NCBI GenBank assembly: GCA_034440575.1
Contig: JAOTOL010001554.1
Location: forward strand, 1,482,501-1,546,500
DNA: 64,000 nt
Origin: Imbricaverruca yamaguchii
Lineage: Eukaryota; Arthropoda; Thecostraca; Neoverrucidae
Direction: 5' to 3'
How positions within the stretch are numbered: position 1 is the stretch's first letter; each line of letters starts with the position of its first letter. The notes beneath the pieces were generated by a model. The model ran no database searches. It was not told the DNA's origin and was given only the letters and a program-made list of their open reading frames with translations. The position numbers and the translations under genes are program-made. This document shows positions 1,236 to 44,143 of the stretch, piece by piece.

Positions 1236-1330
1236 GTCACGGCAACACACATGACGTGAATAGCATTCTTGCACAAAATCCAACTCAACGGCTGCATACA
1301 TAGCCAGTCTCAGAACTACTTTAACAGAAC

Positions 1331-3118
1331 ACAGAGAATCTACCCGCAGCGGTCGGCCTGTCCACACACAGAGGACCTGCCCACCACGGTCGGCCTGTCC
1401 ACACACAGAGAACCCGCCCACCACGGTCGGCCTGTCCACACACAGAGAATCTACCCGCAGCGGTCGGCCTGTCCACACAGAGGACCCGCCCACCACGGTC
1501 GGCCTGTCCACACACAGAGAACCTACCCGCAGCGGTCGGCCTGTCCACACACAGAGAACCCGCCCACCACGGTCGGCCTGTCCACACACAGAGAACCTAC
1601 CCGCAGCGGTCGGCCTGTCCACACACAGAGAACCTGCCCACCACGGTCGGCCTGTCCACACACAGAGAACCTACCCGCAGCGGTCGGCCTGTCCACACAG
1701 AGAACCTGCCCACCACGGTCGGCCTGTCCACATACAGAGAACCTGCCCACCACGGTCGGCCTGTCCACACACAGAGAACCCGCCCACCACGGTCGGCCTG
1801 TCCACACACAGAGAATCTACCCGCAGCGGTCGGCCTGTCCACACAGAGGACCTGCCCACCACGGTCGGCCTATCCACACACAGAGAACCCGCCCACCAAG
1901 GTCGGCCTGTCCACACACAGAGAACCTACCCGCAGCGGTCGGCCTGTCCACACAGAGGACCTGCCCACCACGGTCGGCCTGTCCACACACAGAGAACCTA
2001 CCCGCAGCGGTCGGCCTGTCCACACACAGAGAACCTACCCGCAGCGGTCGGCCTGTCCACACACAGAGAATCTACCCGCAGCGGTCGGCCTGTCCACACA
2101 GAGGACCTGCCCACCACGGTCGGCCTATCCACACACAGAGAAACTGCCCACCACGGTCGGCCTATCCACACACAGAGAAACTGCCCACCACGGTCGGCCT
2201 GTCCACACACAGAGAACCCGCCCACCACGGTCGGCCTGTCCACACACAGAGAACCTGGCCACCACGGTCGGCCTGTCCACACACAGAGAACCTGGCCACC
2301 ACGGTCGGCCTGTCCACACACAGAGAACCTACCCACCACTGTCGGCCTGTCCACACACAGAGAACCCGCCCACCACGGTCGGCCTGTCCACACACAGAGA
2401 ACCTGCCCACCACGGTCGGCCTGTCCACACACAGAGAACCTACCCGCAGCGGTCGGCCTGTCCACACACAGAGAACCTGCCCACCACGGTCGGCCTGTCC
2501 ACACACAGAGAACCTGGCCACCACGGTCGGCCTGTCCACACACAGAGAACCTACCCGCAGCGGTCGGCCTGTCCACACAGAGAACCTGCCCACCACGGTC
2601 GGCCTGTCCACATACAGAGAACCTGGCCACCACGGTCGGCCTGTTCACATACAGAGAACCTGGCCACCAAGGTCGGCCTGTCCACACACAGAGAACCTAC
2701 CCGCAGCGGTCGGCCTGTCCACACAGAGAAACTGCCCACCACGGTCGGCCTGTCCACACACAGAGAACCTGCCCACCACGGTCGGCCTGTCCACACACAG
2801 AGAACCTGCCCACCACGGTCGGCCTGTCCACACACAGAGAACCTGGCCACCACGGTCGGCCTGTCCACACACAGAGAACCTACCCGCAGCGGTCGGCCTG
2901 TCCACACAGAGAACCTGCCCACCACGGTCGGCCTGTCCACATACAGAGAACCTGGCCACCACGGTCGGCCTGTTCACATACAGAGAACCTGGCCACCAAG
3001 GTCGGCCTGTCCACACACAGAGAACCTACCCGCAGCGGTCGGCCTGTCCACACACAGAGAACCTGCCCACCACGGTCGGCCTGTCCACACACAGAGAACT
3101 GACCCGCAGCGGTCGGCC
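1331..3118. repeat. 37-bp minisatellite, about 48 copies
   Basis: The unit is about 37 bp, GGTCGGCCTGTCCACACACA plus GAGAACCTRCCC and then either GCAGC or ACCAC. A 33-bp variant lacks one CACA. Two unit types are interspersed, and an internal block around 2600-2680 recurs at about 2930-3005. On the minus strand each unit shows GTGTGGACAG (acceptor-like) and, in the GCAGC type, GGGTAGGT (donor-like). It begins 13 nt downstream of the InR exon 18 donor. Confidence 0.97.
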
Positions 3119-3131
3119 ACGTGACACTCAC

Positions 3132-3366
3132 TTCATGACGCTGGCCTCGGTGAGGAACGCCTGTCGGTCGTACATGTTGGCGTCCTCCTGCAGCGTCTTG
3201 ATGGCCACCCTGTACAGCTGCTCGGTGTCGTCTCCGGGCTCGCGTGACTTCAGCAGCGCCGTGCCATCGTACACGCTGCCGAAGCTGCCCTTGCCGATCA
3301 GCGCGTCGAAGAACACCTTCTCCACGTCCACCTCCCACCCGTCCGACTGGTACGGCATCTGACCGA
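3132..3366 (-). CDS. InR: InR exon 18: juxtamembrane and kinase N-lobe
   Basis: The exon reads GQMPYQSDGWEVDVEKVFFD, then ALIGKGSFGSVYDGTALLK, VAIKTLQEDANMYDRQAFL and TEASVMK. W-E-V starts the kinase region as in all InR proteins. G-K-G-S-F-G-x-V-Y is the glycine-rich ATP loop, V-A-I-K holds the catalytic Lys, and F-L-x-E-A-S-V-M-K is the alphaC helix with its conserved Glu. The acceptor CTCTGCAG/TCGG is phase 1 and the donor ATGAA/GTGAGT is phase 2, at the position where vertebrate INSR also has an intron. The HRD and DFG exons are off the left edge. A 37-bp array starts 13 nt beyond the donor. Confidence 0.97.
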
Positions 3367-3563: not shown

Positions 3564-3791
<228 letters not shown>

Positions 3792-7823: not shown

Positions 7824-8046
7824 GTGGTCTTCTTGACAAACACGGCGTTCTGGAGTAAGTTCTCGAACAAGATCTGGTCCTTCTTCTGGACGGCGTCGAT
7901 GCCGGCACGGCCCGCCCCACCACGCCGTTTGCCGTCTGCGGCAGTGCACTCGCAGCACTCGGAGCCGTCGGCGATGTCACTCAGGATGGACACGTTCCGC
8001 AGCGGCGGCCTCGTCGTGGTGGTGACCTTCGGCGGGGACTGAACCG
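7824..8046 (-). CDS. InR: InR exon 12: insert domain with alpha-CT-like helix
   Basis: Read from the acceptor CTTCACAG/CGGTTCAG (phase 1), the exon gives AVQSPPKVTTTT, NVSILSDIADGSECCEC, a Lys/Arg/Gly-rich linker and DQILFENLLQNAVFVKKT. The S-P-P and C-C-x-C elements match the insert domain. F-E-N-x-L-x-N-x-V-F-V matches alpha-CT, the alpha-chain C-terminal helix that contacts insulin together with L1. The donor ACCAC/GTGAGT is phase 2. The frame stays open upstream through 17 tandem 81-bp copies of this same acceptor and exon start, up to about 9496. If an upstream acceptor is used, the exon becomes longer by multiples of 27 residues. Confidence 0.93.
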
Positions 8047-9485
8047 CTGTGAAGGCGCGGGTCACGTCAGACGGCAGCCGCCTCACAACACACTGGCGGT
8101 ACGGCCACAGTGGCGGGGACTGAACCGCTGTGAAGGCGCGGGTCACGTCAGACGGCAGCCGCTTCACAACACACTGGCGGTACGGCCACAGTGGCGGGGA
8201 CTGAACCGCTGTGAAGACGCGGGTCACGTCAGACGGCAGCCGCCTCACAACACACTGGCGGTACGGCCACAATGGCGGGGACTGAACCGCTGTGAAGACG
8301 CGGGTCACGTCAGACGGCAGCCGCCTCACAACACACTGGCGGTACGGCCACAGTGGCGGGGACTGAACCGCTGTGAAGGCGCGGGTCACGTCAGACGGCA
8401 GCCGCCTCACAACACACTGGCGGTACGGCCACAGTGGCGGGGACTGAACCGCTGTGAAGACGCGGGTCACGTCAGACGGCAGCCGCCTCACAACACACTG
8501 GCGGTACGGCCACAGTGGCGGGGACTGAACCGCTGTGAAGGCGCGGGTCACGTCAGACGGCAGCCGCCTCACAACACACTGGCGGTACGGCCACAATGGC
8601 GGGGACTGAACCGCTGTGAAGGCGCGGGTCACGTCAGACGGCAGCCGCCTCACAACACACTGGCGGTACGGCCACAGTGGCGGGGACTGAACCGCTGTGA
8701 AGACGCGGGTCACGTCAGACGGCAGCCGCCTCACAACACACTGGCGGTACGGCCACAGTGGCGGGGACTGAACCGCTGTGAAGACGCGGGTCACGTCAGA
8801 CGGCAGCCGCCTCACAACACACTGGCGGTACGGCCACAGTGGCGGGGACTGAACCGCTGTGAAGGCGCGGGTCACGTCAGACGGCAGCCGCCTCACAACA
8901 CACTGGCGGTACGGCCACAATGGCGGGGACTGAACCGCTGTGAAGGCGCGGGTCACGTCAGACGGCAGCCGCCTCACAACACACTGGCGGTACGGCCACA
9001 GTGGCGGGGACTGAACCGCTGTGAAGGCGCGGGTCACGTCAGACGGCAGCCGCCTCACAACACACTGGCGGTACGGCCACAGTGGCGGGGACTGAACCGC
9101 TGTGAAGACGCGGGTCACGTCAGACGGCAGCCGCCTCACAACACACTGGCGGTACGGCCACAATGGCGGGGACTGAACCGCTGTGAAGGCGCGGGTCACG
9201 TCAGACGGCAGCCGCCTCACAACACACTGGCGGTACGGCCACAGTGGCGGGGACTGAACCGCTGTGAAGGCGCGGGTCACGTCAGACGGCAGCCGCCTCA
9301 CAACACACTGGCGGTACGGCCACAGTGGCGGGGACTGAACCGCTGTGAAGACGCGGGTCACGTCAGACGGCAGCCGCCTCACAACACACTGGCGGTACGG
9401 CCACAGTGGCGGGGACTGAACCGCTGTGAAGACGCGGGTCACGTCAGACGGCAGCCGCCTCACAACACACTGGCGGTACGGCCAG
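8033..9485 (-). repeat. 81-bp array of duplicated exon-12 acceptor sites, 18 copies
   Basis: The units are nearly identical and exactly 81 bp. Each contains, on the InR strand, GTCTGACGTGACCC (branch-point-like), CGCCTTCACAG (acceptor) and CGGTTCAGTCCCCGCC, the first 16 bases of exon 12. The last copy is the real exon boundary. Eighty-one is 27 codons and the InR frame is open across all copies. Each unit would encode LWPYRQCVVRRLPS then DVTR[AV]FTAVQSPP. Variable positions are few: A/V, one R/K, and a synonymous Leu change. The homogeneity suggests recent expansion or gene conversion. Confidence 0.97.
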
Positions 9486-13202: not shown

Positions 13203-13212
13203 AGGCGGTTAC

Positions 13213-13427
13213 CTGTCGGCGGTCCACGTGACTACACCCCGTCGGCGGTCCACGTGACTACACTCTGTCGGCGGTCCACGTGACTACACCCTGTCGGCGG
13301 TCCACGTGACTACACCCCGTCGGCGGTCCACGTGACTACACTCTGTCGGCGGTCCACGTGACTACACCCTGTCGGCGGTCCACGTGACTACACCCTGTCG
13401 GCGGTCCACGTGACTACACCCTGTCGG
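13213..13427 (-). repeat. 26-bp minisatellite derived from the exon 9 acceptor, about 9 copies
   Basis: The unit is CTGTCGGCGGTCCACGTGAC plus TACACC (plus strand). The left edge (13203-13240) matches the real exon 9 acceptor region (13704-13740) at about 33 of 37 positions, including the exon-derived GGCAGGCG. On the InR strand each unit repeats CACGTGGACCGCCGACAG, that is, the acceptor. The array lies in the intron after exon 9, about 100-315 nt past its donor. Confidence 0.9.
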
Positions 13428-13527
13428 CATCTATCAATGTCGGCCGGCACGCCCAGCGGCGCACCGTCCTAGCCGCGGTCTCGTGTCAACACCGACACAC
13501 ACCTGTGGGTGTCTAGAGCGTACTCAC

Positions 13528-13714
13528 GAGTCTCCGCCGCACGCGTTCCGCTCTGTGAAGAGGTTGATGTTGCGTTCTGGCGCCTCGCGGTAGTACACGT
13601 AGTAGCCGAGCACGTTGCGATAGTCGTTGACCTGGTCGCTGAAGTTCTCCCATCGCAACACAACTTTTGTTGAATACAGCTTCTCGACCTCCACCCAGAG
13701 CGGCAGGCGTTTGC
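13528..13714 (-). CDS. InR: InR exon 9: first half of fibronectin type III domain 1
   Basis: The exon reads KRLPLWVEVEKLYSTKVVLR, then WENFSDQVNDYRNVLGYYVY, YREAPERNINLF and ACGGDS. It matches FnIII-1 of insulin receptors: the L-R-W strand, L-G-[FY]-x-x-[FY]-Y-[KR]-E-A-P and D/N-A-C-G-x-x-S, whose Cys is used in the alpha-alpha disulfide in vertebrate receptors. The acceptor GCCGACAG/GCAAACG is phase 1 and the donor GACTC/GTGAGT is phase 2. The acceptor and first exon bases have a near-copy at 13203-13240 at the edge of a 26-bp tandem array. Confidence 0.96.
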
Positions 13715-40465: not shown

Positions 40466-41242
40466 CAGAACGAGTACAGCAGGATTTCGAAATAGTCATG
40501 GAAATAATGACATTACAAAATGTGTTAAGTCCCGTAAACCCAGTGTTGAGGAAATTGCGTACATATTAATGTTCCCGCTTTGCGTGCTTTGAGAGGTACC
40601 TAATTTGGTGACAATGATCAACGACAACGACGCAAACGCCCATGTCATAAACTCGGATTATATAACATAGCACATCATAGGTAATACTTTCACCTGGAAC
40701 TGTGCTACGGAGTGTTCGCTATCACGATCTCGGATCCGTTATAGTGAGCATAAGCATGACACTTGTAAAAGGAATACAGTTAGAAATGAGAAATGAATGA
40801 TTCACAAGCATGCACCAAGAAACAAGATATGGATACGCCTTTGTGGAGGATGTCGATTCAGCGTTCAGTAAGTGGGAGATTCCACCCTACTTCGCGAATA
40901 ATGTATCACTGCGTCAGTGATAGCAGGTCAGTGACACCACATGGACGTGATGACTAGTGCATATAGTAGTCATCACATACAGTATTCACTGATGACTACT
41001 GCTGACTACTGATGACTATACTGATGACTATACTGATAACTATATAGCAATCACTGATCCCACCAGATGATTAATGACTACTACATATAGTAGTACCTGA
41101 CCCCTGATAGACGTCAATTACTGTAGGTCAGTGGCATCAGATGGAGTTTAGTGACGGTAAGTCTGTCATCAAAGATGGACGTCAGTAACACCAGATGGAC
41201 AATGACACCAGATGGACCGTCAACGGCCAGCACACGGCTCAC

Positions 41243-41420
41243 CTGTAGAAAAGCACGTAATGCGTGACCTGTTTCAGTCTCGGGAAGCTGATATTCTTGA
41301 AGGTGGCTTGCGTACGGTTCTGGTTGATCAGGATGAGGTGGAGGTAGCCCTCGATGACGTCACAGTCGGAGAGAGACGTATCCATGGAGATGCTGTTGCG
41401 AATGTCGATCGACCCGCAGA
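41243..41420 (-). CDS. InR: InR exon 1 (visible): start of L1 ligand-binding domain
   Basis: The exon encodes 58 codons beginning VCGSIDIRNS, then SLSDCDVIEGYLHLILI, ending near FPRLKQVTHYVLFYR. These match the opening of the receptor L1 domain: the first conserved Cys, D-I-R-N, C-x-V-I-E-G-x-L and the FP-x-L ... Y-x-L-x-F strand. L1 supplies much of the primary insulin-binding face. The acceptor is TTTACAG before TCTGCGGG (entry phase 1) and the donor is ACAG/GTGAGC (exit phase 2). The acceptor is the last member of a 78-bp tandem array just upstream whose units copy this same acceptor, so the true 5' boundary could be elsewhere in the array. The preceding signal-peptide exon must end in phase 1. 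Confidence 0.93.
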
Positions 41421-42216
41421 CTGTAAACGGAGTGGTGACGGGTGAGTGGGTGTAGGACGGCGCTTCACACACCCTACCTAATGACAGCGACCCACAGACT
41501 GTGAACGGATTGGTGACGGGTGAGTGGGTGTCGGACGGCGCTTCACACACCCTACCCAATGACAGCGACCCGTAGACTGTGAACGGAGTGGTGACGGGTG
41601 AGTGGGTGTCGGACGGCGCTTCACACACCCTACCTAATGACAGGGACCCGCAGACTGTGAACGGAGTGGTGACGGGTGAGTGGGTGTCGGACGGCGCTTC
41701 ACACACCCTACCTAATGACAGCGACCCGCAGACTGTGAACGGAGTGGTGACGAGTGAGTGGGTGTCGGACGGCGCTTCACACACCCTACCTAATGACAGC
41801 GACCCGCAGACTGTGAACGGAGTGGTGACGGGTGAGTGGGTGTCGGACGGCGCTTCACACACCCTACCTAATGACAGCGACCCGCAGACTGTGAACGGAG
41901 TGGTGACGGGTGAGTGGGTGTCGGACGGCGCTTCACACACCCTACCTAATGACAGCGACCCGCAGACTGTGAACGGAGTGGTGACGGGTGAGTGGGTGTC
42001 GGACGGCGCTTCACACGCCCTACCTAATGACAGCGACCCGCAGACTGTAAACGGAGTGGTGACGGGTGAGTGGGTGTCGGACGGCGCTTCACACACCCTA
42101 CCTAATGACAGCGACCCGCAGACTTTGAACGGATTGGTGACGGGTGAGTAGGTGTCGGACGGCGCTTCACACACCCTACCTAATGACAGGGACCCGCAGA
42201 CTTTGAACGGAGTGGT
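41409..42216 (-). repeat. 78-bp array of duplicated exon-1 acceptor sites, about 10 copies
   Basis: On the InR strand each 78-bp unit holds an acceptor (TTCACAG), then TCTGCGGGTCG as in the true exon, then CTGTCATTAG and a donor-like GTAGGG. The acceptor-to-donor segment is 21 nt and the remainder 57 nt, both multiples of three. All copies are open in the receptor frame and read V-C-G-S-L-S-L-G-R plus VCEAPSDTHSPVTTPFT. The last acceptor is that of InR exon 1. Units differ by very few bases. Confidence 0.96.
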
Positions 42217-43261
42217 GACCTACACCACCGACTACATCTACTCGAAGTTGCCATCCTTTGCAGACTGGCATGTTGCGATTTTCCCAGCTCAATAAACGTT
42301 CCATCGACGATTATTGATGCTACATGAGTGGTACAGATTGGTCAGTACTATTATCTGCATCTTGAGCAAAATTCGGACACTCATCATCTAAATAATAAAG
42401 TGCTACTTGTTCATCAAGGTCAAACTCAGCGCTATATTGTCCTGAAGCTCGAAATATGCGACTACTAAATACATGAACAAACATCATGACTGTTGAAAAG
42501 TAGTTCACCCTTGTGCCATGAATTCAACTAGGACTCGTTTTAAAAATGAAAGAATTGGCAGCAGTGTTTAGCATTAAAGCGATAACAGTGATACAATAAA
42601 ATAATTACCTTTGGGAGCTGACAAAAAATAACTTCCCTCTACCGTGTGAAACGAAATCACAGTTTTCACTCCCTTCATCGCAACAAATTATATTGCACGT
42701 GATGTACGCACGTCACCTGACTACCTATGGTCAGAATCAGACCAGATTATAAACTACACTCAGCTTTAATCACTAGCATACTCCGAAAGCACCCTTCAGG
42801 AAAACCGAGCTGGCGACCGAGTTGGCTATCAACCCAATTGTATTGTGCCCTGATTTACTGGTGCCGCGAAAACATCCAGACATCAGACAAGTTTAAAGGA
42901 TGAAAAAGCTCATCTAATATATGATCAGTAATCACAACCGTTGGCAATGCTTCCCACCTACTTATGGGTGCTTCAGCATCGCAAACTTTTCTTATAAAGT
43001 GCCTGTAACTTCACAAGAGATCAGCCTATGAACGCCCAAAAGATGATAAGGCTTTTCTGAGTTAAAACCACAGTTCAGAATATACTTATGAAAAACTCCT
43101 CTTAAAAACTCCTCATAAAAATGATATGGAAAAATCGTAGAACCCATTTACGATCAGGGTGTTACTTGGTTCGTTCCGTGGGCGCTTGGGCGTATCAACT
43201 GCAGTGGCCGCTCTGCCTCCTTTGATCAAAGATGCGGCACACAAATGGTCATGTAGCTGCC
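42217..43261. other. 5' flank or first intron of InR, no exon recognised
   Basis: AT-rich unique sequence. The missing signal-peptide exon must lie somewhere upstream (to the right), but no candidate with hydrophobic core, ATG and phase-1 donor is convincing here. Confidence 0.45.
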
Positions 43262-43420
43262 AGTTAGTTATTTTGTGGTCTTACGACGTACTTAGCACCC
43301 GAGGCGCATGGCGTCGCCCGCCTCTCGCCCTGGCAGGAAGGGGGTGGGGCATCCCGGGGAAACGAACTCCGTACCTCTGGCGTGTCAGATGCTCAGCTTA
43401 ACCATTGCGCTACCGGCACC
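43262..43420 (-). mobile_element. tRNA-derived SINE, copy 1
   Basis: The minus strand reads GGTGCCGGTAGCGCAATGGT (A-box-like), then a B-box-like GGAGTTCGTTTCC, then a body with TTCCTGCCAGGG and GAGAGGCGGGCGACGCC and a tail ACGTCGTAAGACCACAAA. It is homologous to the SINEs at 47633 and 49529. Confidence 0.88.
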
Positions 43421-44143
43421 CAATTGTGAAGCTGCAAGGAACAGGAAGGGAAGCGTTATTACTCAGTCCAGAAAGCATGCCGGAGAAGGATTGGTGGCCT
43501 GTGCCGGCGATTGCAACAACCGGGGAAGCGAGGCTCCCCGGCGCACAAGCGTTTTTGAATAGCTTGAGTGAGAATTGAGAGTTGGGTGCTGGGTATAGGA
43601 TTGCACGGGATTATGCAACAAAAGAAGGCTATTTTGAAAAGCATTTTGTTGTCACGTTAGGTACATGGCAGATTAATAACTTGGATGTTTTATCCTCGAG
43701 TTTGCATTTCATTTTTGTTATCTTGGTCAAAGGAAAACACGAGTAACACTAAGGAGAGTTAGCATGTGGTTATTTTAAAGGCGATTATATAAGGCAACCA
43801 AATGCTCTTCTTAAGTAGAATAAAATTACACATTGGTCTCATATATTTCAGCCATGGCCCCACTTTGGAGACAGAGCATATACGCAGATACATTTTACGC
43901 ACAGGATTCGCAGCATATACTTAATGTGTCAGGACGCCTACCAATATTGACGAAGGGGTTTTAATCCTCGTCTAAATCCAAGTATGGCACCAACATAACA
44001 ATAGCATTGCAACAAGTGCATGTGATGCGGCCCTACCAGTGTAAGAATGTTCGTCGCTTCCCTTTGGACCTTTCCTATCCGAATATATCAGACCAATTTG
44101 TTCTATTTTACTTAATATGAGCATTTGCTTACTTTATATAATC
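43421..44143. other. Unique AT-rich spacer
   Basis: No gene, RNA gene or repeat recognised. Confidence 0.5.

Follow-up and report, generated by a model that had tools for sequence, protein, structure and literature searches.

A 78-bp minisatellite spanning the L1-domain acceptor of an insulin receptor gene in a barnacle-like crustacean

Mirages of amphioxus are minisatellites whose tandem units run over an exon boundary, at either the acceptor or the donor, and for which AG or GT in many units and, from RT-PCR, undisturbed splicing have been reported (PMC3087553; PMC3902484). The mirage units are in the same size range as those of the present study (10-72 bp in Adh3 and 150-160 bp in globins), and their authors suggest that exonic portions of the units could become new exons. 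In a potato gene, duplication of an intron end with the following exon start woke a cryptic donor and created an intron (PMC4974935). Further reported cases are a minisatellite with multiple splice donors in IFI6/6-16 (Turri 1995, as cited in PMC4526556) and, in human duplicated genes, internal tandem repeats situated at exon boundaries, with an average unit of 30 bp and four copies (PMC2812944).

An array of 78-bp units at the L1-domain acceptor of an insulin receptor gene can be compared with each of these systems. It is like the amphioxus mirages in that tandem units extend over an exon boundary and many of them carry AG or GT. It is unlike them in its host, a barnacle-like crustacean instead of a cephalochordate, in which 6 of the 80 kinase-exon ends sampled have such arrays. 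The unit also differs, as its donor is in frame, its period is a multiple of three and it contains no stop. In amphioxus, both splicing and length instability were tested, whereas the present array is known from the sequence of one assembly. As in the intron gain in potato and in the AGGT model of Rogers, the duplication supplies a branch site, a pyrimidine tract and AG, and a cryptic GT within the copied segment might act as a donor, although the potato event was a single duplication with an annotated transcript and the present one comprises ten copies in DNA. The units of IFI6/6-16 also offer alternative splice sites; those are donors, and the human gene concerned gives rise to several mRNA species, whereas the present units offer acceptors and potential donors in genomic DNA. 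The repeats of human duplicated genes are likewise minisatellites at exon-intron boundaries, for which cryptic splice sites and exon retention have been discussed, but they lie in recent human segmental duplications.

The window, i.e., the whole 64,000-nt stretch of Imbricaverruca yamaguchii DNA that was analysed, contains the host gene on its minus strand. The insulin receptor-like proteins of two barnacles match best, that of Amphibalanus amphitrite at 46% over 100% and that of Pollicipes pollicipes at 51% over 74%, and the minus-strand exons also match solved chains of the insulin receptor and IGF1R. A tblastn search with the two barnacle proteins mapped pieces of ~18 exons from L1 to the kinase start, and the order of the segments (L1, Cys-rich, L2, FnIII, transmembrane and kinase) is that of an insulin receptor. 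A PF01030 search of the genome (767 Mb, 1430 contigs) revealed at least four matches, two of them in this gene and two elsewhere with weak insulin-receptor resemblance that look EGFR-like by eye; judging from these matches, the gene appears to be the sole insulin-receptor gene found in the genome searched. Beyond the residues ..EASVMK at 3132 (first kinase exon, 3132-3366), a tblastn search of 100 kb downstream (L013-L018 and L027-L030) gave no further kinase exons, and the missing remainder reflects either a huge next intron, a truncated gene or an assembly break. Two repeats flank this first kinase exon: a 37-bp array of 49 copies at 1329-3118, starting 14 nt beyond its donor, and a run of 112 TG dinucleotides at 3564-3788 in the intron upstream of it. 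A stretch at 43260-43430 has the look of a tRNA-derived SINE by eye; ARAGORN and Rfam were negative there, and tRNA and Rfam scans of the whole window returned nothing.

The L1-domain exon, placed by homology and splice sites, occupies 41243-41420 (178 nt, minus strand). It encodes the start of the insulin-receptor L1 domain, CGSIDIRN...THYVLFYR, and ends at the donor CTACAG/GTGAGC at 41243, which is strong (11.2 on an approximate weight matrix). The exon start TC-TGC completes the valine codon G/TC and matches ..TVCPSIDIR of the A. amphitrite orthologue, in agreement with the phase 1 entry proposed in an earlier note on this DNA. Upstream of this exon, TRF detected a tandem array at 41410-42219 with a period of 78, 10.4 copies and 96% matches. 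Unit-by-unit listing resolved it into ten complete 78-nt units on the minus strand, from 42200 to 41421, which abut the exon. This result, together with the barnacle insulin-receptor matches, confirms the proposal of about ten 78-bp copies ahead of the true L1 exon; of the span originally given for the array, the upper end at 42219 is correct, whereas the lower end at 41243 is the end of the exon and the array ends at 41410.

The array and the real junction have in common a 30-nt core (41410-41439, minus strand), so that each unit contains the last 19 nt of the intron and the first 11 nt of a homology-supported exon, joined to 48 nt of unmatched filler. Because this intron/exon core repeats in tandem, the acceptor is duplicated in every unit. 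A partial upstream copy at 42201-42219 (minus strand), consisting of 19 nt of intron end up to the first acceptor TTCAAAG, forms the border between the array and unique intron. The units start with TCTGCGGGTCG, with rare variants, and end with ..CGTTCACAG or a close variant. In each unit, the first 21 nt, TCTGCGGGTCGCTGTCATTAG, constitute a potential microexon and the remaining 57 nt, GTAGGG...CACAG, a potential intron; on the minus strand these lie at 42180-42200 and 42123-42179 in the first unit, and the remaining potential microexons follow at 78-nt steps down to 41478-41498. AG is present at all 11 junctions, and the claim of an acceptor in every unit holds at this level; the exact string TTCACAG is found at only 7 of the 11, with TTTACAG at two (including the real acceptor) and TTCAAAG at the two most upstream. 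Similarly, GT occurs at +21 in all ten units, as TTAG/GTAGGG in nine, while the unit at 41576 has TTGG/GTAGGG instead of the donor that had been ascribed to every unit. The distances of 21 nt from acceptor to donor and 57 nt from donor to next acceptor were confirmed in every unit as multiples of three without an in-frame stop.

The unit matches the genome 11 times, always inside 41410-42219. A search for the origin of the 48-nt filler in the window and ten neighbouring 10-kb stretches (L009-L018) yielded nothing convincing, the best E value being 1.3, for the unit. Derivation of the filler from the following exon was rejected, as there is no similarity and 72% of shuffles score equally high.

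Donors and acceptors were scored with approximate weight matrices. Eight of the ten duplicate acceptors score 1.4 to 2.8, compared with 2.84 for the real one, and the two TTCAAAG sites score lowest. The in-frame donor TAG/GTAGGG at 21 nt scores 7.23, higher than 4 of the 12 real donors of the gene, and with it each 78-bp copy that carries it offers a 57-nt GT-AG interval of the kind involved in intron gain; the variant TGG/GTAGGG of one unit scores 4.91. A branch-like CTCAC lies ~23 nt upstream of AG in the 78-bp units. Since most duplicate acceptors are close to the real one and the donor exceeds a third of the real donors, the use of the duplicate sites is not forbidden by the sequence. The 78-bp unit also contains a rival donor, AGG/GTGTGT, at 26 nt, which scores 7.03 and breaks the frame. 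The statement of the earlier note that splicing of any unit keeps the frame applies to the 21-nt donor and fails for the one at 26 nt.

The reading frame is open back to the upstream edge of the array, where a TAG lies, and a listed ORF at 41239-42174 (311 aa) runs continuously from the array into the L1 exon. One retained 78-bp unit corresponds to 26 residues, VCGSLSLGRVCEAPSDTHSPVTTPFT, as had been predicted, and the frame stays open through all ten units. An in-frame extension of the exon is conceivable, in which upstream acceptors would be used, unit donors ignored, and 26-residue repeats of variable copy number (up to ~260 residues) added to the amino end of the receptor. The open frame through ten units, the eight acceptors that score near the real one and a second array in the gene that is also open across 18 junctions speak for this reading, as does the report that, in humans, transcripts retaining the repeat are often seen for variable tandem repeats at exon boundaries (PMC2812944). 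We nevertheless consider it unlikely. Each retained unit would place two additional cysteines ahead of the first conserved Cys in L1, and exon definition would be expected to favour the nearest acceptor. The A. amphitrite orthologue, the one relative compared, reads NNMTVCPSIDIR without an insert, and the P. pollicipes match does not include the region around the insert site. Changes among the units show no clear synonymous excess that would indicate selection (6 of 14 in the 78-bp array and 4 of 12 in the second array, with 30% expected). Moreover, the amphioxus mirages are described as leaving splicing undisturbed (PMC3087553).

Microexons are known as transcribed and often conserved exons, and the 21-nt segments, which are potential microexons here, resemble them in size and frame. 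Exons of 21 nt usually depend on special enhancers, which counts against a functional cassette in which a variable number of 21-nt units would be spliced in and tune the N-terminal edge of L1. The arrangement of 21 + 57 nt in frame throughout, the strength of TAG/GTAGGG relative to the real donors and the branch-like CTCAC before AG are what such a cassette would require, and potato offers a precedent for a duplication that woke a cryptic 5' site and gave a real intron (PMC4974935). A cassette is nonetheless improbable, even more so than an exon extension, as the comparably strong donor at 26 nt would disrupt the frame, one unit has the weaker TGG/GTAGGG, one additional cysteine would be brought in per unit, A. 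amphitrite has no insert, and the design is absent from the second array of the gene while junction-spanning arrays are common in the kinase sample.

How often such a unit would arise by chance was estimated by replacing the 48-nt filler with random intron sequence (40,000 draws per setting). The full design, defined as a period that is a multiple of three, a best donor that is in frame and of at least real strength (threshold 7.22), and no stop, was reached by 0.25% of units with fillers of 20-120 nt and by 0.65% with a fixed 48 nt. These low frequencies favour a functional cassette and stand against a tolerated by-product, as does the more exon-like character of this unit compared with the other arrays. 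In the same simulation, ~13% of units per array combined a period that is a multiple of three with the absence of stops. The 78-bp design is unusual per array, yet it was chosen post hoc, and junction-spanning arrays are frequent in the genome.

A second acceptor-spanning array in the same gene, at 8031-9484 (minus strand), has an 81-bp unit and 18 junctions (17 copies and the real one). It leads without stops, in an open frame, into the insert-domain exon at 7824-8046 (minus strand; acceptor CTTCACAG/CGGTTCAG, donor CCAC/GTGAGT). A single GT of the unit is in frame, at 36 nt and with a score of -1.77, and the strongest of all its donors, at 41 nt with 4.72, would break the frame. The argument that two arrays of the same design in one gene speak against chance is thus not sustained, since a usable in-frame donor is missing from the 81-bp array. 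A third array, of 26-bp units (8.3 copies, 13212-13428, minus strand), lies downstream of the FnIII-1 exon (13528-13714, minus strand), and its units echo part of the acceptor region upstream of that exon despite their downstream position; at its end, 36 nt of the FnIII-1 junction recur at 89% identity, and the last copy runs on into exon-like sequence. Array copies of the junction were detected at 3 of 14 probed acceptors of the gene (L1a, insert domain and FnIII-1) and at none of 12 probed donors. Matches of 11-20 nt at nine further junctions were read as chance; they include 14 of the L2c acceptor, of which the four listed all lie in the 37-bp array. Among 36 mapped boundaries of the gene, several of which are tblastn ends and hence inexact junctions, two are spanned by arrays, four have an array within 30 nt (1.0 expected, P 0.012) and two have one within 10 nt (0.6 expected, P 0.12). 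The 163.5 kb around the gene contain 50 arrays with 12.9% coverage; periods divisible by three, in 17 of the 50, are at chance level, and a frame preference of arrays was accordingly rejected.

Junction-spanning arrays, i.e., arrays whose units carry exon bases together with a splice site, were also sought at kinase exons elsewhere in the genome. A PF07714 profile search listed at least 151 matches, from 147 scored of 518 candidates, and 40 kinase exons (80 sides) of up to ~330 nt without stops were taken from the 151 listed matches down the ranking. The first 20 were taken one per contig; among the next 20, contigs may recur, rows within earlier stretches were omitted and two fitting rows were passed over. 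Reading of the sequences revealed junction-spanning arrays at 6 of 80 sides (7.5%), in a small sample of one domain family with exon ends placed by kinase motifs and AG/GT. Four are at acceptors: a 34-bp array with 19 upstream copies and AG in all (L035), a 43-bp array with AG in seven of seven recognised copies (L051, C694:113575-114975, minus strand), a 39-bp array with AG in five of seven (L060), and three copies of 32, 31 and 36 nt with a nominal period of 31 (L065). The other two are at donors: 8.4 copies, with a period of 31, of the last ~27 nt of an exon and its donor (L032, C1273:1207361-1208961, minus strand), and a 32-bp array (L053). In addition, 18 of the 80 sides have the edge of a merged array between -30 and +49 nt relative to the match end, compared with 2.6 expected from the density 100-589 nt away (16 edges), a ~7-fold excess (Poisson P 4e-10) for sides that are non-independent, in stretches that partly overlap, and for match ends that approximate exon ends. 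One of two EGFR-like paralogues, assigned by eye (L023-L026; C1355:2222000-2241999 and C694:118000-137999), is similar in this respect: in the C1355 copy, a 47-bp array with 38 copies begins ~29 nt beyond the final aligned base of an exon, and the TRF list of the other copy contains no counterpart of it. The C1355 copy also has a 20-bp array ending ~7 nt before another exon.

None of the four kinase acceptor arrays is open in frame. The one with a period divisible by three (39) has a stop within 21 nt, and the other three reach a stop within 0.4-2.5 units. Across all 36 of their units (19, 7, 7 and 3), the score of an in-frame donor never exceeds 0.1. In L051 a donor of 7.9 coincides with the acceptor in four of seven units as the AG/GT site CAG/GTGTGA, and in L060 a donor of 6.06 lies one base past the acceptor in two of seven units. 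The joint AG/GT site of L051 is arranged as in the AGGT model of intron gain. Of the six acceptor-spanning arrays examined, one, the 78-bp array, has the full microexon design. The periods of the junction-spanning arrays (78, 81, 34, 43, 39, 31, 31 and 32) are divisible by three in three of eight cases, and units elsewhere in the genome, such as 31, 32, 34 and 43, contain stops. The rate of 6 of 80 at kinase-exon ends, against 2 of 36 in the insulin receptor, also removes the force of the earlier argument that such a design within one gene speaks against chance.

Tandem arrays are prone to assembly error, and a single assembly was examined. False tandem duplications are nevertheless highly improbable as the source of the array, given 14 changes among ten units at an exact spacing of 78 nt and the presence of similar arrays elsewhere in the genome.

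Taken together, these observations indicate that the 78-bp block is probably a mirage, i.e., a minisatellite spanning the L1 acceptor, and that its ten extra acceptor-donor copies are likely to leave with the intron, with splicing probably at 41420. Such arrays recur at acceptors and donors of the sampled kinase exons, and array edges cluster at exon ends. Tandem duplication may have been seeded at the exon end or have crept toward it, and unequal exchange and conversion would have kept the units alike. The surplus junctions could be tolerated as redundant, each retained unit adding 26 open residues here, and exon definition would favour the acceptor closest to the strong donor of the 178-nt exon. 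Occasionally, the neighbouring acceptor might be used, with a gain of 26 residues, or a 21-nt microexon might be spliced in, with a gain of 7 (V-CGSLSL), in either case as noise or rare variation and not as the default. No purpose specific to the receptor is needed, because the 2 of 36 boundaries in the gene are close to the 2.7 predicted from the kinase rate of 7.5%. A constraint particular to this receptor is possible, because the design is found in one of six arrays and both arrays of the gene are frame-safe, at ~13% each. A broader proposal, that exon ends seed minisatellites that keep renewing spare acceptors, donors and microexons, frame-safe at two insulin-receptor exons and with an N-terminal edge that would differ between alleles, appears quite unlikely.

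No report of junction-spanning arrays in barnacles was found in the literature searched, which took in a minority of subscription journals. The literature found on junction-spanning minisatellites as mirages describes cephalochordates, and the 78-bp array is the same kind in a crustacean, although its unit is unusually exon-like. More interesting than the array itself is that minisatellites cluster at exon ends in an animal that is not a cephalochordate. The 6 of 80 kinase-exon ends and the ~7-fold crowding of edges suggest a recurrent process, not a lancelet oddity, and the insulin receptor is a gene with two junction arrays that are frame-safe by happenstance. If the sample holds for other genes, this one genome would contain a very large number of natural junction duplications that differ by degrees in age, frame and splice strength, and tandem duplication as a source of new exons and introns could then be tested directly.
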